Part shown: positions 2,401 to 14,379 of the stretch, in pieces | How the letters are laid out: each line of letters starts with the position of its first letter | Numbering within the stretch: position 1 is the stretch's first letter | NCBI GenBank assembly: GCA_016934355.1 | Contig: JAFGTA010000227.1 | Location: 1-14,379, forward strand | Direction: 5' to 3' | DNA length: 14,379 nt | Source: Candidatus Bathyarchaeota archaeon | GTDB lineage: Archaea; Thermoproteota; Bathyarchaeia; TCS64 | Notes under the pieces: model-generated | Told to the model about the DNA's origin: nothing | Seen by the model: the letters and a program-made list of their open reading frames with translations, nothing else | The model's database searches: none | Translations under genes and position numbers: made by a program

Positions 2401-2471
2401 TACACTTTATTTCTTACCTTTATAGTGATTATCTTATATCCTCATAGACGAAGGTGATCTCAGAAGCCCAT

Positions 2472-2479
2472 GGGGGTGA
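2472..2479 (+). promoter_or_regulatory. Ribosome binding site deciding the start at 2485
   Basis: GGGGGTGA lies 5 nt before ATG 2485. An in-frame ATG at 2470 has its own AAGGTGATCT (2451-2460) 9 nt upstream, so both starts are feasible. The 2485 start is preferred because the receiver-like fold begins right after it (GKRVNILAFIE). Confidence 0.5.
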
Positions 2480-2484
2480 GACAC

Positions 2485-3153
2485 ATGGGTAAACGAGTCA
2501 ATATATTAGCCTTCATCGAAGGCGATTCTCAGCCAGAGCTTCTCAGATATGTCCTCGAGAGATACGACCCTGATTTCCACGTAGACCTAGCCGCGACCAT
2601 CCTCGCAGTTCAAGAACACATCCACTCCAACACATATGACTGCATGATGTCCACACACGAGTCGCCCCACCTCGGCGCAGTCCGACGGCTACAGATAACC
2701 AGCAGGTCCCCGGAGATACCACTGCTGTTGCTACACCAGCGTGAGCTGGACTCGCTTCACATTGGAACCGATATCACGAAACACGCCTGTGAACTAAGAC
2801 GGCTGGTAGAGAAAAGGGGTCAGATAAAAGATAACCGACCACAGCCACGAACACATCCTCTCGTATCCATAAGGGAAGGCGATATCTACGTAGAAGGCGC
2901 AGACGGGAAGGACATCCTGTGGGGGTACGAGGGCATCGACCCGTATTCAGTTGCCAGCTCGATGGAGCTCGAGCTACGAGCGATCGACTACGTCAGAGAC
3001 CGGCTCGCCGTAACTGTCTCCGAGGTGACGGAGGAGCTTAACCAAGCGGAGCTGCCCATCGAGGACGTGCCCGACCTCGTCTTCGAGGGCTACAGGAAGC
3101 TGCTTCTCTGGTTCAGGGATCTTGACGAGTCCTTTGGCTGCCGCCTACGATAA
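2485..3153 (+). CDS. Protein with degenerate response-regulator receiver domain
   Basis: A 222-aa protein (numbering from ATG 2485; five residues longer from 2470). Residues 5-100 follow the receiver-domain pattern: a first strand with acidic residues (VNILAFIEGDSQPELL), then YDCMMSTHESP (51-61) where active receivers have YD.V..D..MP, then PEIPLLLLHQREL (76-88) and IGTDITK (93-99), matching the P-D-I-P and G-A-D-x-x-x-K stretches. The phosphoacceptor Asp is replaced by Thr57, so phosphorylation in the usual way is not expected; it may be a constitutive or ligand-sensing pseudo-receiver. Residues 130-222 form a separate acidic, mostly helical region that I do not recognise and that shows no clear DNA-binding motif. 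No histidine kinase is nearby. It is a single gene between T-rich stretches. The receiver assignment rests on pattern only. Confidence 0.65.
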   Translation: MGKRVNILAFIEGDSQPELLRYVLERYDPDFHVDLAATILAVQEHIHSNTYDCMMSTHESPHLGAVRRLQITSRSPEIPLLLLHQRELDSLHIGTDITKHACELRRLVEKRGQIKDNRPQPRTHPLVSIREGDIYVEGADGKDILWGYEGIDPYSVASSMELELRAIDYVRDRLAVTVSEVTEELNQAELPIEDVPDLVFEGYRKLLLWFRDLDESFGCRLR

Positions 3154-3315: not shown

Positions 3316-3480
3316 ATGCCTGAAAGAAAATACAAGTACCACACGGTAAACCTCCCCGAGAGCCTAGCGAAGAAGATCGAGGAAGTAATCGAGAGCGGCA
3401 ATCATGGTTACACCAGCATCCCTGACTTCGTGAAGTCGGCAGTACGCCGGTACCTGAGAGACCTCGGATATCTAGTGTGA
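3316..3480 (+). CDS. Small ribbon-helix-helix (CopG/MetJ/Arc-type) protein, 54 aa
   Basis: An ATG at 3316 and TGA at 3478-3480 enclose 54 codons. The product reads MPERKYKYHTVNLPESLAKK, then a helix, then GYTSIPDFVKSAVRRYLRDL and GYLV. This is the classic RHH layout: a short basic beta strand (KYHTVNLPE, residues 6-14) that pairs in a dimer and contacts DNA; helix 1 (about 15-26); a turn containing GYTSIPDFV, where the ST.SEFVR-like motif caps helix 2; and helix 2 (about 34-49). The size is that of a minimal RHH transcription factor. No toxin gene lies beside it on the same strand, so an antitoxin role is not indicated; an autoregulated or local regulator is likelier. There is no Shine-Dalgarno, and a TATA box sits about 28 nt upstream (leaderless). 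Targets are unknown. Confidence 0.8.
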   Translation: MPERKYKYHTVNLPESLAKKIEEVIESGNHGYTSIPDFVKSAVRRYLRDLGYLV

Positions 3481-7307: not shown

Positions 7308-8576
7308 TCATGTTTCCGGTAACGCGTCTTCTTTCCGCCCTCTTTCACGTAGTCTGCCTCTTATCTTGGCTATTCTCCGCGAGAAACTCTTACGCTTCCC
7401 CAGGTACTCGTCTTGGATCAGCTTCCTGAGCGTGCTGGCTGTCTCCCGGTGACTATCAACGATGTTGGTCTTTTCCGTTGGATCGGTCCTCAGGTCGTAG
7501 AGTTCCTCTTTATCATCGTCGGAGTAGGGAGCATAGACATACTTTGTATCGTATGTGCGTACTCCGACAAGCCATTTGGACTCGTCGGGGATCACTTCTC
7601 CGCAGGCCTCGAGGAACACGTGGGTACGTCCAATTTTTTCACCTTCTAACACGGGTTTCAGGCTCAGACCTTCGAGGCCCAGGTCATTTGTAGGAATCCC
7701 GAGAACGTCGATTAAAGTTGGGAAGACATCTATCTGACTCACTAGGTCATCGCTGCTACGTCCCAGGAACAATCCTTCGCCGCTGAATATCAGTGGAATC
7801 CGGGTCAGATAATCGTAGACATGGTACCCGTGCCCCTGTATCTTCAGGTGGTCGACCCTAGCGACGCCGAGGCGTGACAGCTTCTTCAACACCCTTCTAC
7901 GTGTCTTAGTCAGGCGGTCTTCGAGGTTTGTCCACGCGATGTTCTCCCCATGATCTCCTAGAACCACGATCACGGCGTCCTCACCGGCTGCGTTCACCAG
8001 CCGCTGCAGGTACTCGTCCACCGCCGACAGCGCCCTCTCATACCTGTTTCTCCCATATTCCCTGCTATCATGGCTCTCCGGGACGACGATGGGTAGGTGG
8101 AGCTCCCAGAGGTGTAGGAAGAGGAACCAGGGAGACTCATAGTGGCCGACCGCGACCCTGTCAAGCAGGGTCTGGCCCCACCTCGAGTGGATGTCCTCCT
8201 CCTTCTCCCTGTACCGGAACTCGGTGAAGCCCCGGCCTACGCCGATGCTCTCCACCAGAGGGCCCGTGACCTCTGCGTAGGTGTTGTACCCGTTCTCGCG
8301 AAGCACCTCGGGGAGCGTCTTCACGTCGTTAAGCTTGTAGCCGTAGAGAGACCGCAGTCCATGTCGAGGTGGGTATAAACCGGTTAGGATGCTGGCGAAG
8401 CTGGGGGACGTCGTGGATGTCGTCGAGAAGGCTCTCGTGAAGACGGCGCCGTGCTCGATCAGGGCATCGAGGAACGGCGTCTTTGTATTGACCTTGTCTG
8501 CTTCCCTATAGACGATGTCGGCCCTGCACGCGTCCAACACTATCAGAATTATATTGCGTTTACAGGTGCCGCTCAT
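7308..8576 (-). CDS. Sulfatase/alkaline-phosphatase superfamily hydrolase or phosphotransferase
   Basis: A 422-aa protein of the alkaline-phosphatase fold. NIILIVLDACRAD (residues 8-20) supplies the first metal Asp (D15). STTSPSFASILTGLYPPRHG (54-73) is the active-site loop C/S/T-x-P-S-x-x-x-x-L-T-G; the nucleophile position is Thr56 and the Arg of true sulfatases is Phe60. FLHLWELHLP (153-162), VVLGDHGEN (204-212, metal D208/H209) and HGYHVYDYLTRIPLI complete the metal site. Because Cys or Ser for formylglycine is absent, a phosphodiesterase, phosphatase or phosphoglycerol-transferase-like activity is likelier than sulfatase. There is no signal peptide. ATG 8576 is chosen over a TTG at 8618: it lies 29 nt after a TATA-like box and directly before the first strand. 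It is divergent from a small RHH-like gene 42 bp away. The substrate is unknown; surface glycans or lipids are possible. Confidence 0.85.
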   Translation of the reverse strand: MSGTCKRNIILIVLDACRADIVYREADKVNTKTPFLDALIEHGAVFTRAFSTTSTTSPSFASILTGLYPPRHGLRSLYGYKLNDVKTLPEVLRENGYNTYAEVTGPLVESIGVGRGFTEFRYREKEEDIHSRWGQTLLDRVAVGHYESPWFLFLHLWELHLPIVVPESHDSREYGRNRYERALSAVDEYLQRLVNAAGEDAVIVVLGDHGENIAWTNLEDRLTKTRRRVLKKLSRLGVARVDHLKIQGHGYHVYDYLTRIPLIFSGEGLFLGRSSDDLVSQIDVFPTLIDVLGIPTNDLGLEGLSLKPVLEGEKIGRTHVFLEACGEVIPDESKWLVGVRTYDTKYVYAPYSDDDKEELYDLRTDPTEKTNIVDSHRETASTLRKLIQDEYLGKRKSFSRRIAKIRGRLRERGRKEDALPET

Positions 8577-8599
8577 TAGAGAAAAGACTATTACCTCAA

Positions 8600-8611
8600 A
8601 ATTTAAAATAG
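8600..8611. promoter_or_regulatory. AT-rich promoter element between divergent sulfatase-like and RHH-like genes
   Basis: AATTTAAAATAG lies in the 42-bp gap. On the minus strand it reads TATTTTAAATT, centred 29 nt before ATG 8576, a good leaderless TATA box. For the plus-strand gene at 8619 it is only about 14 nt upstream, too close to be its own TATA, so that gene's promoter is unclear and may overlap the sulfatase-like gene start. Confidence 0.45.
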
Positions 8612-8618
8612 TTACCAA

Positions 8619-8816
8619 ATGGCTAAACTCGCTATCAGCATACCCCTGGAGCTAAAAGAAAAGCTAGACTCGTTTCTGGAGGCTAACAGGGACGAGTTCA
8701 AGGACGTCGAGGAGTTCATCCTCTTCCTTCTCTCGGAGTTCCTCGGCGACCTCGAAGAGCCCGAGGAGGACGAGCTCCTCAAGAAGAGGCTTAAGGCGTT
8801 AGGATACATAGAGTGA
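8619..8816 (+). CDS. Small RHH-like protein with sulfatase-style C-terminal tail, 65 aa
   Basis: A 65-aa acidic protein. AKLAISIPLELKEKLDSFLE opens it and matches an RHH strand (LAISIPLEL, residues 3-11) plus helix 1; FKDVEEFILFLLSEFLG (about 27-43) fits helix 2 with the usual V-E-E-F capping sequence. The C-terminal tail is a Glu-rich linker followed by LLKKRLKALGYIE. From memory of the family, an R-L-x-x-L-G-Y-I/L ending is frequent at the C-termini of sulfatase-superfamily proteins, and here the divergent neighbour is exactly such a protein, which itself lacks this tail. A role as a regulator or partner of the neighbour is an inference. The strand is less basic than in typical DNA-binding RHH proteins. 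No Shine-Dalgarno is seen; ATG 8619 is the only start that keeps the strand. Confidence 0.65.
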   Translation: MAKLAISIPLELKEKLDSFLEANRDEFKDVEEFILFLLSEFLGDLEEPEEDELLKKRLKALGYIE

Positions 8817-8840: not shown

Positions 8841-8901
8841 CTTATATCAGAGACAGCCTAAAAAACATGTAAACATCGGACAGGTGACAGGGAGTGAGGT
8901 G
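8841..8901 (+). promoter_or_regulatory. Promoter and ribosome binding site of the twin-paralogue operon
   Basis: CTTATATCAG (8841-8850) is a good TATA-like box that would place the transcript start near 8870. GAGGTG (8896-8901) then lies 10 nt before ATG 8912. This is one of the clearly leadered, Shine-Dalgarno-type units in the window. Confidence 0.5.
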
Positions 8902-8911
8902 GCTAGCTTAG

Positions 8912-9481
8912 ATGTCGAGTACGAGACGTAAGATGCTAGCCGCGCAAGAGGACATCGCAAACAAGATCGTGGAGCTCGCCAACCGCAAGGACATGACGGT
9001 GTACCAGACGGTGAACGACATCCTTGAGCAGGCTATCCGCGTAGAAGGCATCGGCCTCAGCCTCAAGCAGGTGGTGGACGAACGGTGGATGCTGGAGCGG
9101 GCCCAAGAGATCGGTTTCACATTCACCATCGAGCAGCTTCTCTACCAACTGGTGGACGCAGCCTACGAGGAAGACAAGAAGAAGTTCACCGAGATATTCA
9201 AGGAGATGGGCCACTGGTACGGTAAGTATTTCCAAGCCAAGCACGACGACCCTCTCACGGCTCTCCGCGACTCGCTTGAGCTGTTCTGCCTGGGTAACAC
9301 CGAGTACAGCCTCGAGCAGACGCCGAGGAAGCTCAAGCTTTCGTTCATAGGGGAGAAGCTGACCTCCGGGTACACGGAGCTGTTCAGCGTACTCATGGAG
9401 GAGATACTGCTCGGCATCGGCTACAAGCTCAACGGCAAGGATATACGTAAAGGCATACTTCGAATGGAGTTCAAGAGGTGA
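8912..9481 (+). CDS. Unknown protein, first of tandem paralogue pair (RHH-like N-terminus)
   Basis: A 189-aa soluble protein; I do not recognise the family. Residues about 12-60 look like two helices of an RHH-like or similar small helical domain (TVYQTVNDILEQAIRVEGIG, then LSLKQVVDE). A central segment includes EMGHWYGKYFQAK, and the C-terminal 45 residues (LTSGYTELFSVLMEEILLGI, then GYKLNGKDIRKGIL) suggest a strand-helix unit. All three blocks recur in the next gene: DILEQAIRVE / EALDQALRVD, GHWYGKYFQAK / GAWYGAYLQTK, and TELFSVLMEEILLGIGY / TELLVQYLGGLMSELGY. There is no signal peptide or membrane segment. It is the first gene of a two-gene operon; its stop codon is part of the next gene's ribosome binding site. 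The position between an RHH-like/sulfatase-like pair and the S-layer gene may or may not be meaningful. Confidence 0.7.
   Translation: MSSTRRKMLAAQEDIANKIVELANRKDMTVYQTVNDILEQAIRVEGIGLSLKQVVDERWMLERAQEIGFTFTIEQLLYQLVDAAYEEDKKKFTEIFKEMGHWYGKYFQAKHDDPLTALRDSLELFCLGNTEYSLEQTPRKLKLSFIGEKLTSGYTELFSVLMEEILLGIGYKLNGKDIRKGILRMEFKR
9475..9481 (+). promoter_or_regulatory. Ribosome binding site overlapping a stop codon; fixes TTG start 9486
   Basis: GAGGTGA contains the TGA stop of the upstream gene (9479-9481) and lies 4 nt before TTG 9486, the only sensible start before the conserved part of the second paralogue. This implies translational coupling of the pair. Confidence 0.6.
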
Positions 9482-9485
9482 CGCC

Positions 9486-10076
9486 TTGGTAGAGGAGCTA
9501 CTGGACGACAGCAAGTTCATCCTGTTACCGGCGGCACTGGTCACCCAGCTCAGGCTCGTATCCGGTAGGCTCGGAAGCAGCGTCTCCAGGTACGCCGAGG
9601 AGGCTCTCGACCAGGCTCTCCGGGTTGACGAGATGGGCTCCAACCTCAAGGAGGCTGTAGACATTTACCGCTTGGTTACGGTGCAGAGGGGGGCAGGAGG
9701 AATCTCTGTAAACCGGGCTAACCTCGACGAGTTACTCAAGAAGCTTCACGGTAAGAGAGGGGACGAGGTCTCGCGTCTATGGTACGAATCAGGCGCGTGG
9801 TACGGCGCATATCTTCAGACGAAGTTCAACGGCGAGAACATATTTGATTTTCTTGAGAAGGATCTGCTGTTGAACTGGAACCTTGATGAGGTCGTGGTCA
9901 AGCAGGAGGATGTCCTCGTGTCTGTCCGCTGCACATCGTTCGGCATGTCTACAACTCTGACAGAACTGCTTGTCCAGTACCTTGGGGGATTGATGAGTGA
10001 GCTTGGTTACTCCGAGAATGAGCGGGATGTTCTCCGCGGGCTTGTCTTGATTAAGTTTTTACGGAAGCTTGGATAA
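9486..10076 (+). CDS. Unknown protein, second of tandem paralogue pair
   Basis: A 196-aa soluble protein paralogous to the preceding gene. The shared order is an N-terminal helical segment SVSRYAEEALDQALRVDEMG then NLKEAVD; a central YESGAWYGAYLQTKFNG; and a C-terminal block TELLVQYLGGLMSELGY, then a charged loop and VLRGLVLIKFLRKLG. Identity is low overall and concentrated in these blocks, so the duplication is old or the two subunits have specialised; they may form a heterodimer. The middle differs: it lacks the Phe-Thr rich stretch of the first protein and has a longer loop rich in Val (VVVKQEDVLVSVRC). The start is TTG 9486, supported by a strong ribosome binding site at the upstream stop. 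A T8 terminator follows about 25 nt after its stop. No function is assigned. Confidence 0.7.
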   Translation: MVEELLDDSKFILLPAALVTQLRLVSGRLGSSVSRYAEEALDQALRVDEMGSNLKEAVDIYRLVTVQRGAGGISVNRANLDELLKKLHGKRGDEVSRLWYESGAWYGAYLQTKFNGENIFDFLEKDLLLNWNLDEVVVKQEDVLVSVRCTSFGMSTTLTELLVQYLGGLMSELGYSENERDVLRGLVLIKFLRKLG

Positions 10077-10108: not shown

Positions 10109-10386
10109 AGGTTTATTTTAACATTTATTTGGAGTAATATTCTTTTCTTTTCTCTTTTATTAATATGTATTAACTTTATTTCAGGATAATTGTTGGTGTT
10201 TTTAGTGTCTCCAGAATGGTTTATGCACTAGGGTTCTTTATTTTTGTCTCATTTCTGTATACATCATCTGTGGTCTTGTAGACATACCTTAATATAGCGA
10301 ACTATGAGTCTGAATCCCAATCGATGAATAGGGTATGTAAAGTATATCATAATACCCTGTTCAGCGATAAAAGGTGAAAAAGGAAA
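10109..10386 (+). promoter_or_regulatory. AT-rich intergenic region and promoter of the S-layer-like gene
   Basis: This 278-bp stretch has no coding signature and is far more AT-rich than its surroundings. Two TATA-like boxes are visible: TTAATATAG (about 10288-10296) and AGTATATCAT (10341-10350). The latter is centred between the arms of an inverted repeat, GGGTAT (10331-10336) and ATACCC (10352-10357), so a protein bound there could control the promoter. AAGGTGA (10371-10377) lies 9 nt before ATG 10387 and is a strong ribosome binding site. A long, AT-rich upstream region with strong translation signals suits a highly expressed surface protein. I see no RNA gene in it. Confidence 0.55.
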
Positions 10387-13230
10387 ATGAATAGTAAGAA
10401 AGCAATAACGCTACTAGTTCTAGTAACACTGATCATTGGAATGATCCCGGTGATAAGCGTCTCAGCTGTTTCGATTACCAGTATAGTTCCGACTAACGGC
10501 AAGAAGGGCGACACGATCGTCGTTAAAGGCGATGGTGTTCCCGCTGGTTATGTGGTTGAGCTATACTGGGACGACGTCACAGTGACGTGGAACGGAAAGG
10601 TTGGTAAGCTTAACAGCACAACCGCCGAGTCAGCCGGCACTTGGGAGGTCTGGTTCGATGTTCCTGAGGCCAAGGTTGGCACTCACAACGTTTGGATCAA
10701 GGTCCCCTCAGGTGGCGAGACCGCACAGAACCCATTCACAGTTAACCCCATGCTGAAGCTGAGTGCAAGCTCAGGTTTGGCGACAGAGAAGGTCACGGTG
10801 GACTACTATGGTTTCGGCAGCTCTAGGAACATGGCAACATTGTTCGTTGTTGATGCTGATCCAGCTAACTGGCACACCAGCACTACAACAGCCGCCGCCA
10901 TCGACACGATAGTCTCTGGCGAGACCGACTACGATGGAACCCTTACAAATAAGCCAGTCGATAAAGGCACATTAACCGTACTCATTAATGCGGTTGCTGC
11001 CTTTGCCGACGATGGCGCAGGAGGTCTAACGGCTCAGGGCGCTTTCACTGGTTCGGGTAAAATCAACTACGTCACAGGTGCCTGGGAGTTCACTGTTACT
11101 GGTGGTGCTACCGCAGGTCAGGCTGTAACGGCTACATATGATTATTACTCAGATCAGGCCGACGACACGTATCTCCTTAGCACAAGCGGAACAACAAACG
11201 ACATAGGTACTCTACTAGGTCGAAAAGTTACTGTCCCTGGTGCTACAGCGGGAGCCTACTTAATGGCAGGCTACGACTCGAAGGGTGTCGTATCTACTAA
11301 GGCTTTCACAATCGGCGCAGTGATCTCAGTAGACAAAGACGAGGTCGTCACTGGTGACATCATCAAGGTTGATGGAAGAGGATTCACAACTGGTGGTGCA
11401 GCTTTAATAGCCGCATGTGAACTACACAGAACAGGTACAGGTAAAATCGCTGATGCCGTCATTATTGACGACAAGACGGCGATAAAGACAGATGGCACAT
11501 TCAGCATACAGATTGTGATGCCCGACGGTCCGAAGAAGGACGATGACTACTTCCTCTACATCGAAGACAACGCAGGCACACCGAAGAGCGCTCAGGCTGA
11601 TCTTGAGATCACCGCTCTATCCGAGATTACTCTCGACCCAGAGTACGGTCCTCAGGGAAGCCGCGTGTCCATCTCGGGGAAGAACTTCCCCAAGATAAGG
11701 GGCGAAACTGTACTTGTCAAGCTATTTGAAGGTGCAATTGAGCGTGCGGACATCGAGGATTACGAGACAAACGCCGATGGTACCTTCTCAGGAACCTTCC
11801 GTGTACCCACTTGGCCAGACGCCGCATACTCAATTGTAGCCATGGCCGAATACAAGGCAGGTCCACCTCAGGTACTCTACAACGTTGAGGCCGACGCCGA
11901 CTTCAGAATCGGTACTATCCTCGTGCTTCTCTCTGATGATGAAGGCCCCGCCGGAATGAAGATCACGCTGACGGGCAGCGGATTCACAAACAGCGGAGAG
12001 TGGAACGCCACATTCGGAGACATTGATCTCTTCACAACTACTGCAACAACTGCACAAGGTCTGCTTGACGACGGCGGTAGCACACCCGTGTTCTACGTGC
12101 CACAGGTCGAGCCAGGTGAATACGAAATCTTAGTGCTTGACGTAACAGCCGAGATCGAGGTCGTTGTCCCCTTCACGGTGACAGCTACCACTGGCTTCAC
12201 AGTAAGCCCGGCTACGATGCCCTCAGGGTTCAACGTAACCATCACTGGTTCAAACTGGATTACCGACCCAACATCGACATTCACGTTCACGCTATACAAC
12301 GTGACTGGAACAGGTGCAATTGCGGATGAATGGGACATCGCGACGAAGATCCGGCAGTTCAAGGCCGGCAGCGCCGCCGAAGTACAGTTCGTCCGTCCCA
12401 ACGATGACGGCGAAATCGCCGCATGGTGGGAGGCAGAGCAGCCCGACGGCACCGAGCTAGACAAGGGTGTATACTACCTAAACGTAACAGACAACACAGA
12501 GGACTACTTCGTCCAAGTACAGGTAACCATAGGCGACAAGCACATCTACGCAGCGCCCAGAAAGTCCACGTTCCGCATCGGCGACACCGTGTCCTTCGTG
12601 CTCCAGCACAGCTTTGGCAACAAGGCACCTGTAGCCGGAGGAGACCTGAGGGTCTACGACCCAGACGGTAGCCTATACTGGGACGGCGACGACATCGACA
12701 CCTGGACCAAAGTGGAGATGTACTACACCGCACCGATCTCTTCACAGACAGCAGGCAACAACCCGATGATCCTCCTCGACGACGCACCTCTCGGCTCTTG
12801 GACATACAAGTGGCGCGAGGACGACGGCGACACGATAAAGGAGGGCTCATTCAACGTTGAGGCCGCTGCGGCTGACGTAATCGGAGAGCAGATCGAGGAC
12901 CTCAACTCGGCGATCGACGGCCTGACCAGCGACATCTCGACGGTCAGCAGCGCGGTCACGGGCCTACAGACCAACGTCAATAGCGCCATCCAGGCGGCCA
13001 ACGCGGCCGTCGCGGCAGCCAACGCAGCGACAGAGGCAGTCAACGCAGTAGCTGGCACAGCCAGCGACGCAGCTACGGCAGCGCAGAGCGCAGCCGACGC
13101 GGCAACGGACGCTCAGAGAGCGGCCAACGGACTGACCACACTCGTCTACGGCGCCATCGGCGCGAGCCTAGTAGCGGCACTTGCAGCAATCGTATCTCTA
13201 ATGCAGATAAGCAGAAGGATAGCAGGCTAA
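10387..13230 (+). CDS. S-layer-like surface protein with Ig-like repeats and C-terminal membrane anchor
   Basis: A 947-aa secreted protein. A Sec signal peptide covers residues 1-27 (MNSKK, hydrophobic core, ISVSA before the cut). The body holds about seven Ig-like (IPT/TIG-like) modules, each beginning with a P/S-x-x-G-x-K/x-V-x-I-x-G-x-G/N-F-like pattern: ITSIVPTNGKKGDTIVVKGD, ISVDKDEVVTGDIIKVDGRG, ITLDPEYGPQGSRVSISGKN, DDEGPAGMKITLTGSGF, VSPATMPSGFNVTITGSNW. A separate module is inserted in the second (about 169-265). An Ala-rich coiled coil spans about 832-915, and a membrane segment about 919-940 ends in ISRRIAG. There are five N-x-S/T sequons, four of them in the C-terminal half (WNATF, FNVT, YNVT, LNVT). 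The coiled coil plus anchor resembles archaeal S-layer stalk proteins (SlaB/tetrabrachion style). It probably lines the cell surface. It stands as a single gene with its own promoter and terminator. Confidence 0.85.
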   Translation: MNSKKAITLLVLVTLIIGMIPVISVSAVSITSIVPTNGKKGDTIVVKGDGVPAGYVVELYWDDVTVTWNGKVGKLNSTTAESAGTWEVWFDVPEAKVGTHNVWIKVPSGGETAQNPFTVNPMLKLSASSGLATEKVTVDYYGFGSSRNMATLFVVDADPANWHTSTTTAAAIDTIVSGETDYDGTLTNKPVDKGTLTVLINAVAAFADDGAGGLTAQGAFTGSGKINYVTGAWEFTVTGGATAGQAVTATYDYYSDQADDTYLLSTSGTTNDIGTLLGRKVTVPGATAGAYLMAGYDSKGVVSTKAFTIGAVISVDKDEVVTGDIIKVDGRGFTTGGAALIAACELHRTGTGKIADAVIIDDKTAIKTDGTFSIQIVMPDGPKKDDDYFLYIEDNAGTPKSAQADLEITALSEITLDPEYGPQGSRVSISGKNFPKIRGETVLVKLFEGAIERADIEDYETNADGTFSGTFRVPTWPDAAYSIVAMAEYKAGPPQVLYNVEADADFRIGTILVLLSDDEGPAGMKITLTGSGFTNSGEWNATFGDIDLFTTTATTAQGLLDDGGSTPVFYVPQVEPGEYEILVLDVTAEIEVVVPFTVTATTGFTVSPATMPSGFNVTITGSNWITDPTSTFTFTLYNVTGTGAIADEWDIATKIRQFKAGSAAEVQFVRPNDDGEIAAWWEAEQPDGTELDKGVYYLNVTDNTEDYFVQVQVTIGDKHIYAAPRKSTFRIGDTVSFVLQHSFGNKAPVAGGDLRVYDPDGSLYWDGDDIDTWTKVEMYYTAPISSQTAGNNPMILLDDAPLGSWTYKWREDDGDTIKEGSFNVEAAAADVIGEQIEDLNSAIDGLTSDISTVSSAVTGLQTNVNSAIQAANAAVAAANAATEAVNAVAGTASDAATAAQSAADAATDAQRAANGLTTLVYGAIGASLVAALAAIVSLMQISRRIAG

Positions 13231-13290: not shown

Positions 13291-14184
13291 TTAGATCCGG
13301 GGCTTGAACTCGACTTCTTGAAGCCTTTCAGCAAGCCCGTAAAGCCTTTCCCTGCCTGGAGTCTCGCCGCCTATAACAGAGTCCTCGAACTCGTTATTCA
13401 CGAGGCTGACCAGCACGTCCATCTGCATGTCCAGACGCTCAGCGTCGGCCTCACCTATGCCAGAGTAACCGCCAAGCTCCTTCTCCCATAGAAGGTAGAA
13501 CGTAGATACGAACAGGTGGTGGTACCTCTTGTCAAACCATTCAGACGGGTGCTTCGACGCCTCCGCGACGCCCCGCAGCACGATCTCGAGGAGCCCGAAG
13601 ACCTCCTTCTTAACCGCCCCCACATGCCTCTCGCGGAGCTCCGCCTCGAGCTTGTCAAGCGACACGCTGTACTGGCTTGGCTCCAGACCCTCCCTGTCCC
13701 GCTGAACAAGCTTAAGCTGCGTGAGAACCTCCTGGAGCCCCGGCCAGTTTATCTTCCCGCCGGTGCCGGCGGCCAGCTTGAAGAGGTTGTCCGCGAGGTC
13801 CAGGTTCAGGTAGAGCTGGCCTAGGTGAAGCTCCCGGGTCTCCCTGAACTCCCGTCTCTGACGCTCCACAAGCTCCTTCCTTCTCGTTATCTCCCCTTGG
13901 ACGCTGCTTTGGATCTCAGTTATCTGCTCCTCGTAGACTGTAAAGAAGGTAAGCTCCTTTGCCTCGCCTTCGGCTGTGTAGCTTAGCCTGAGCCTCTGTG
14001 ATCCGGTGTACGGCTTGTGGCCTTTGCTGAGCTCGGTTTCCTGAACCTGCTCCAGCTTGATCTCTGCGGTGGGTACCATTTTTCTGCCGACGAGACCTCT
14101 CTGAACCGATACGGTTATGGTGTCGCCGTCCAGAGCTAGCTCGGCGGTTTCGCCTTTCAGAAGCTTTCCCCGGACCTCAGGCAT
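13291..14184 (-). CDS. Unknown 297-aa protein, beta-rich N-terminus (PH-like?) and helical C-terminus
   Basis: A 297-aa soluble protein; I do not recognise a named family. Residues 1-100 are beta-rich, with alternating strands such as ETAELALDGDTITVSVQRGL, AEIKLEQVQETEL, RLRLSYTAEGEAKELTFFTV and a closing helix EEQITEIQSSV. This layout resembles a PH-like domain, seven strands closed by a helix; that is a pattern-based guess. After a charged helix (ITRRKELVERQRREFRETRE) the remainder is helical, with no membrane segment or catalytic motif visible. ATG 14184 is chosen because the upstream gene's stop (14179-14177) overlaps it as ATGCCTGA, giving translational coupling, and because residues before it in this frame are out-of-frame coding of that gene. 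It converges on the S-layer-like gene. Confidence 0.75.
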   Translation of the reverse strand: MPEVRGKLLKGETAELALDGDTITVSVQRGLVGRKMVPTAEIKLEQVQETELSKGHKPYTGSQRLRLSYTAEGEAKELTFFTVYEEQITEIQSSVQGEITRRKELVERQRREFRETRELHLGQLYLNLDLADNLFKLAAGTGGKINWPGLQEVLTQLKLVQRDREGLEPSQYSVSLDKLEAELRERHVGAVKKEVFGLLEIVLRGVAEASKHPSEWFDKRYHHLFVSTFYLLWEKELGGYSGIGEADAERLDMQMDVLVSLVNNEFEDSVIGGETPGRERLYGLAERLQEVEFKPRI

Positions 14185-14379
14185 CCGGGTTCCTCCGCAG
14201 CGAGTCCGAGGTCTCTTCGAGGGTGAGGGGCGAGTAAGTCGTCCTATGGTACATCTTGAGGTACTCGATGCCGTACTTCTCGGCCACGCCCAGCTCATTC
14301 AGCCTCACCTCCCCCTTATCGTCGAGGATGCGGGTGATCTTCTTCTGGAACACGGGGTAGTTGAGCAGCATCTCCTTCC
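14177..14379 (-). CDS. C-terminal part of an unknown protein, cut by the window edge
   Basis: The frame is open from the right edge to TGA at 14179-14177, giving at least 66 residues: KEMLLNYPVFQKKITRILDD, then GEVRLNELGVAEKYGIEYLK and a tail ending DSLRRNPDA. An ATG lies at 14371, but the purine-rich GGAAGGAG touches it directly and so cannot serve as its ribosome binding site; the frame stays open upstream, so the gene probably extends past the window. Codon use matches the neighbours. No domain is recognised; the helix-turn pattern around ELGVAEKYGIEYLK could be a small helical domain. It overlaps the next gene by 8 nt and is clearly in one operon with it. Confidence 0.6.
   Translation of the reverse strand, partial: KEMLLNYPVFQKKITRILDDKGEVRLNELGVAEKYGIEYLKMYHRTTYSPLTLEETSDSLRRNPDA

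Follow-up and report, generated by a model that had tools for sequence, protein, structure and literature searches.

What does a pair of small, coupled genes of no recognised family do ahead of a large surface-protein gene? The question is raised by positions 8912 to 10076 of a 14,379-nucleotide stretch of Candidatus Bathyarchaeota DNA (hereafter the window, meaning the whole stretch analysed). The two genes, here called A and B, probably encode the two subunits of one regulator that binds palindromic TGTNNACA sites and controls the surface-protein gene. Most archaea are coated on the outside by a surface layer (S-layer), whose protein ranks with the most abundant they make; the Bathyarchaeia are themselves abundant and hardly cultured. 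For Bathyarchaeum tardum, the available text describes an S-layer visible by microscopy (PMC10477458). The open-access literature, covered mostly through titles and abstracts, showed no regulator dedicated to the S-layer gene of an archaeon, which does not prove that none has been published; titles and abstracts that combine ribbon–helix–helix (RHH) proteins with the S-layer or with V4R domains likewise described nothing like the present system. If our reading is true, it supplies a regulator, its exact operator and its target gene, testable with two small soluble proteins.

Genes A and B Are Coupled Paralogs Inherited Together

8912..9481, plus strand: gene A, 189 amino acids (aa), ATG start; putative RHH segment at about residues 6–45, predicted V4R/H-NOX/Bet3-like domain at about residues 70–189
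9475..9481, plus strand: Shine-Dalgarno-like GAGGTGA for gene B, recognised by sequence, with the TGA stop of gene A inside it
9486..10076, plus strand: gene B, 196 aa, TTG start; putative RHH segment at about residues 10–48, followed by a predicted V4R-like domain

Both open reading frames (ORFs) are present as given in the original prediction, an earlier note made from this sequence. At their junction (9475–9488, GAGGTGACGCCTTG), GAGGTGA spans the stop of A and is followed by four bases and the TTG, and the putative ribosome binding site of B does overlap the stop of A. For comparison, we assembled 79 loci (the window, 20 contig loci, and 58 further neighbourhoods); pair counts omit nine loci with a single match, two of them cut by contig ends and seven true singles, and refer to the remaining 70 two-gene loci. 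The gap between A and B measures −29 to +9 bp in 58 of these pairs, with the genes abutting or overlapping in 46, as read from mechanically called ORFs whose over-extended starts may explain some of the other 12.

Paralogy of A and B is near certain. BLASTP aligned them with 43/173 identities (E 9e-11), and hhalign aligned family A with family B at E 3.5e-21 across 184 columns, both above chance; the family alignments contained 34 of the 188 protein matches for A and 35 of the 143 for B, picked by hand from 120 listed. The three shared sequence blocks reported earlier occur in the same order in both proteins, with identical TEL-(12 residues)-GY spacing, and the similarity extends beyond the blocks over almost the full length.

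Co-inheritance of the two genes is equally near certain. All 70 pairs are adjacent, on one strand and in identical order; the first gene scored better against family A in every pair, and the second against family B in 69, with L062 even. A scan of 256 genomes from the class of a relative, G001 (CP070784), at a match threshold of E 1e-5, found A/B matches in 80 genomes. Two matches were present in 69 of these and were adjacent in 68 (exception G201); in G001, the pair accounts for the only two matches. Where source names of relatives were given, they were mostly Bathyarchaeota or Thermoproteota, with one bacterial label for a B relative (P0137), and the 20 contigs from a scan of GTDB species genomes comprised 18 Bathyarchaeota, one uncultured archaeon, and one Aquificota (L006). 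We take the bacterial labels on P0137 and L006 as putative binning errors. In a tree of 146 rows, all 69 A rows shared a branch (100/99) that reached 71 rows by including L005 and the single gene L016, 64 B rows fell on another (99/94), and five B rows joined six single genes (99/91). The root is a drawing aid only, and related loci are non-independent, with statistics uncorrected for phylogeny. We read the tree as suggesting one old gene duplication; the single genes may represent the ancestral state or losses.

Each Chain Is Predicted to Join an RHH Segment to a V4R-Like Domain

No Pfam or NCBIfam model reached its cut-off for window A or B, and sequence searches returned no relative of known structure better than E 0.3. 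The predicted fold of A residues 70–189 matched V4R/PoxR/MopR, Bet3/Trs33, YslB, and H-NOX, and the B half of a joined A-B model, built for the relative L008, showed a V4R-type fold too. The C-terminal domain is a known fold of an unnamed family, not the new alpha/beta domain originally proposed. The N-terminal parts of the joined model contained strand–helix–helix twice (strand 4–10 with helices 11–23 and 28–44; strand 202–208 with helices 209–222 and 226–242) and were placed in one predicted RHH-like unit, whose best structural match was TraY, with its two RHH copies per chain. Structure prediction thereby favoured the suggested RHH-like dimerisation part when both N-termini were modelled together, but not for A as a single chain, where a helix replaced the expected strand; the RHH segment of A was assigned through its alignment with B and the joined model.

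Among sequence profiles, RHH_3 matched window B below the cut-off (E 0.18). In family B, it matched 7 of 35 sequences, RHH_5 matched once (E 2.3e-5), and one relative carries PF07878 in the database; RHH_1 matched 11 of 47 sequences in the set of B and single-gene products. None of the 34 family A sequences had an RHH profile match. V4R (PF02830) gave no match to E 1 in window A or B and none to E 0.1 in the 34 A and 35 B relatives, and no cysteine, let alone the three-cysteine cluster of V4R, stands in an invariant or nearly invariant column of these sequences. In H-NOX/HNOB proteins, a conserved histidine is the haem ligand. Haem or nitric oxide sensing by A was considered because of a weak HNOB match (PF07700; 14.2 bits against a cut-off of 25.5, and weak in 5 of 34 relatives) and rejected, as invariant or nearly invariant columns of the 34 A and 35 B sequences contain no histidine. 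The available text of PMC5847659 describes HNOB, V4R, and ATC-hydrolase domains as similar and V4R as having three conserved cysteines, and RHH and V4R occur there in separate proteins. Each chain is modelled here as an RHH segment plus a domain of the V4R/H-NOX/Bet3 fold, a predicted fold class to which we assign high confidence.

A and B likely form a heterodimer, judging from the model. The obligate pair originally suggested gains support from the constant adjacency and order in 70 of 70 two-gene loci and from the predicted joint RHH-like unit. Weighing against an obligate heterodimer are the seven single-gene loci (L016, L058, L059, L065, L073, L079, and L086), whose products presumably form homodimers, and the wide sequence difference between A and B; both would fit A and B as separate homodimers with different targets. 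We regard that alternative as unlikely, given the uniform strand and order of all 70 pairs, the tight coupling in 58, and a joined model that pairs both N-termini, though without a homodimer comparison.

RHH proteins often belong to toxin–antitoxin, partition or plasmid-maintenance pairs, and the small size, tandem order and coupling of A and B would suit such a role. One relative is labelled as a plasmid stability protein at its source, and FitA-like and CopG-antitoxin models match a few relatives weakly. A and B, however, share one two-domain plan, have no nuclease or ParA partner, and are flanked by chromosomal genes that are themselves conserved (PfkB-, RadB-, and CarS-like clusters), and the class-wide tree shows long co-inheritance. 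A toxin–antitoxin, partition or plasmid-maintenance role is thus disfavoured to the point of being scarcely credible.

A Surface-Protein Gene Lies Downstream of Most Pairs

10387..13230, plus strand: surface (S-layer-like) protein gene, 947 aa, with a signal-like N-terminus, TIG (E 4.2e-12), an Ala-rich C-terminal stretch, and a C-terminal membrane anchor

From its sequence, we read this product as a putative S-layer protein. Genes were counted as surface-type if they encoded at least 550 aa, hydrophobic at both termini and with few membrane spans in between, or, for cut ORFs, if the matching end was visible; the rule was fixed after the genes had been seen. Leaving out seven of the 70 pairs with less than 600 bp of downstream sequence, 44 of 63 have a surface-type gene at most 3 kb downstream, either on the same strand (31 complete, 10 cut) or facing the pair (one complete, two cut). 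Restricted to complete surface ORFs, the count is 32 of 63 downstream versus 0 of 51 upstream. This neighbourhood suggests the function proposed for A-B. S-layer genes had been named beforehand as neighbours worth checking, and putative ones do adjoin most pairs, which cannot be said of the sulfatase-like gene named with them, found in no shared cluster among 21 loci.

The 19 pairs without a surface gene include five with cut, split or mis-started surface ORFs (L010, L084, L089, L092, and L109). Another five, all of one clade, carry ESCRT-III/Vps4-type genes downstream (L060, L062, L094, L096, and L097); Pfam was run on two of these loci and gave clear MIT and AAA matches in L062 and Snf7 at only E 0.0086 in L060. 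Three more carry FtsY/prefoldin-like genes (L075, L082, and L085), with Pfam applied only to the FtsY-like gene of L075. No pair of TGTNNACA sites was seen before the ESCRT/Vps4-type genes, one isolated site being present in L096. By analogy with RHH regulators in other archaea, the A-B pair may control division genes in this clade.

Paired Palindromes Mark the Surface-Gene Promoter

10256..10263, no strand: distal palindrome TGTATACA, proposed operator half, from site statistics
10277..10284, no strand: proximal palindrome TGTAGACA, spaced 21 bp from its distal counterpart; the other proposed operator half
10288..10296, plus strand: TATA-like element CTTAATATA; its start follows that of the proximal palindrome by 11 bp

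Sites were counted in 40 regions separating B from the surface gene (9,003 bp in total; the near-identical L099 and L100 excluded; two regions, L058 and L059, from single-gene loci). These contain 76 copies of TGTNNACA, compared with a mean of 4.4 and a maximum of 11 in 200 dinucleotide shuffles. At least one copy is present in 38 regions and at least two in 30 (shuffles 0.28, maximum 3), and TGTNNACA ranks first among all 64 patterns of the same shape (z 33.8; runner-up 6.7). As the motif had been picked out by eye from part of the regions, we repeated the count on the 19 regions not used for this purpose and obtained 34 copies versus 1.7 expected (maximum 6 of 200). Distances between successive sites cluster at 20–22 bp (16 cases), 28–31 bp (13), and 60 bp (three), with 39, 41, and 53 bp once each and overlapping sites 2 bp apart in three cases. 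Of the 34 regions long enough to be read, 25 have a TATA-like octamer that begins 11–14 bp past a site, compared with 3.1 for random positions (maximum 10 of 1000). The proximal site ends 4–5 bases ahead of the TATA-like element, beside or over the B recognition element (BRE). Neighbourhood and sites are held with high confidence.

This fixed position, where TFB acts, would suit an extended BRE or a TFB contact, as a core promoter feature of surface genes that are strongly expressed and have no dedicated regulator. A core element should be common, however, and the exact two-site pattern, TGTATACAN{11,15}TGTAGACATA, occurs in only 10 of the 256 genomes, once in each (against a single occurrence, in G058, for the reversed control pattern); moreover, there are usually two sites, spaced by 2, 3 or 6 helical turns. 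We therefore consider the core-promoter explanation very improbable. All ten exact matches lie in the region between B and the surface gene, with the contig of G250 ending before the gene becomes visible. A looser pattern matched 12 of 19 window-side genomes with A-B; of its 18 distinct places, 15 are at surface genes (counting G250 despite its contig end). The other three looser pairs (G238:C4:73522, G245:C37:9674, and G247:C88:10400) may be further targets or chance. Among the seven window-side genomes without a looser match, the contig ends at the pair in G246 and G251, G243 has no adjacent surface gene, and in two of G240–G242 the distal site reads GGTATACA.

The sites stay with the surface gene when it moves away from the pair. 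In G001, the gene lies 2.7 kb off and retains sites at −128 and −107, and in L055 and L088, which have an intervening gene, the sites remain with the surface gene. G237 (L095) has a second surface gene about 3.9 kb beyond B, accompanied by a separate TGTATACA pair at 21-bp spacing and by extra sites; by eye, the leader of this second gene looks hairpin-like. In four genomes with A-B that have surface genes elsewhere but none adjacent (G079, G105, G109, and G198), an exact site was found in three of six surface promoters (L145, L146, and L147), with a site-like sequence only in L143 and none in L142 and L144. Of 11 genomes without A-B that had a surface-protein match, six were left out because the match covered part of the protein only; in the others, the site was present in 0 of 4 readable regions (L148, L155, L156, and L159), L154 being masked. 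Other surface-like genes had a site in L151 and none in L153, L157, L158, L160, and L161; L149 was masked, and L150 and L152 had no usable start region.

These absences also bear on whether another regulator uses the TGTNNACA pairs as its operator, with A-B merely adjoining the surface gene. TGTNNACA would be plausible for any RHH dimer, and the window encodes two further small RHH-like proteins, of 54 aa (3316–3480), conserved in eight other loci of the 79, and of 65 aa (8619–8816). Among the 79 loci, with whole genomes unsearched, the former is confined to window-side loci, while the sites occur in other clades too; the latter is present in the window alone. With the site also absent in all four readable cases without A-B, we judge another regulator to be quite unlikely.

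Autoregulation through such a site was considered for a single TGTAAACA at 8868–8875 and dropped. The TGTAAACA copy is not conserved in the relatives compared, and sequence upstream of A shows no enrichment: five sites versus 3.6 in the same 39 loci, and 13 versus 5.7 (shuffle maximum 11) in 76 loci.

Proposed Mechanism

RHH units recognise short palindromic DNA, often with cooperation along one face of the helix, and in PoxR/MopR the V4R domain acts as a sensor of aromatic compounds that controls a transcription activator. A-B likely binds the sites found here. In the arrangement that we propose, the N-terminal RHH segments of A and B would pair to form one DNA-binding unit, and the C-terminal V4R-like domains would dimerise and possibly sense a ligand. 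One A-B unit would occupy each palindrome, and units joined through their V4R-like domains would sit on two (sometimes more) TGTNNACA sites on one helix face directly upstream of BRE/TATA, thereby setting transcription of the surface gene. Such tying of A-B units would account for the spacing of the sites by two, three or six turns. We lean towards A-B as an activator, because GvpE activates from two 8-nt elements beside the BRE, according to the available text of PMC4390858; repression, by hindering TFB, is a less favoured but serious possibility. Whether A-B is under small-molecule control is an even call.

More tentatively, the pair may be a dedicated ligand-gated RHH/V4R-like heterodimer that bridges phased TGTNNACA operators at the BRE and couples S-layer synthesis to a signal from a small molecule or from the envelope. 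It would have arisen by duplication within Bathyarchaeia from a homodimeric single-gene ancestor, with site spacing (2, 3 or 6 turns) varying by clade and the distance to the TATA-like element fixed.

Other Features of the Window

10320..10368, plus strand: predicted hairpin (ATCG...CGAT) in the 5′ untranslated region (5′-UTR) of the surface gene, immediately before the Shine-Dalgarno AGGTGA at 10372–10377

The hairpin has a z of −3.7 in the window, and all eight window-side regions (window included) give values of −1.9 to −5.1, compared with −2.6 to +0.8 in 11 regions of other clades. It may serve in mRNA stabilisation or translation control. Regarding the small RHH-like proteins, the 54-aa one (plus strand) reaches up to 98% identity in L002 and L007, a degree of conservation unusual for so small a protein, and the 65-aa ORF (plus strand) is directly divergent from the sulfatase-like gene at 7308–8618 and has no counterpart in the other 78 loci. 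The ORFs at 2470–3153 (227 aa) and 13291–14298 (335 aa) are conserved, recurring in two and three of the neighbourhoods, respectively, and had no Pfam match at E 1.

Comparison with Known Systems

With TraY and the RHH proteins of the CopG/MetJ class, A-B would share the strand–helix–helix N-terminus, as seen in the joined model, and the proposed short palindromic sites; unlike them, it would comprise two different subunits, each encoded by its own gene and each with a large C-terminal domain. The archaeal RHH proteins CdrS and aCcr1 control cell-division genes, not a surface gene, according to the available text of PMC7617429. Compared with the V4R sensors of MopR/PoxR/DmpR, A and B lack a V4R sequence match and an invariant cysteine, and their V4R-like domain is joined to a putative RHH segment rather than to AAA+ and helix–turn–helix domains. 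They differ from TRAPP Bet3/Trs33, YslB, and H-NOX in lacking a sequence match and a conserved haem histidine or cysteine, and in the added RHH segment. An analogy in overall plan is offered by NikR, in which one gene encodes an RHH domain plus an ACT sensor domain and the homotetramer binds operator halves about two turns apart. A-B would likewise have an RHH part at one end and a ligand-binding, oligomerising domain at the other, but NikR differs in its sensor fold and as a single-gene homotetramer. For the promoter architecture, a likeness is offered by the haloarchaeal GvpE-responsive elements, described in PMC4390858 as two 8-nt elements that directly adjoin the BRE on its upstream side, for which a short, constrained distance is essential. 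GvpE itself resembles a leucine-zipper protein, and its elements lie 4 nt apart, whereas those proposed for A-B are separated by 12–13 nt or more.
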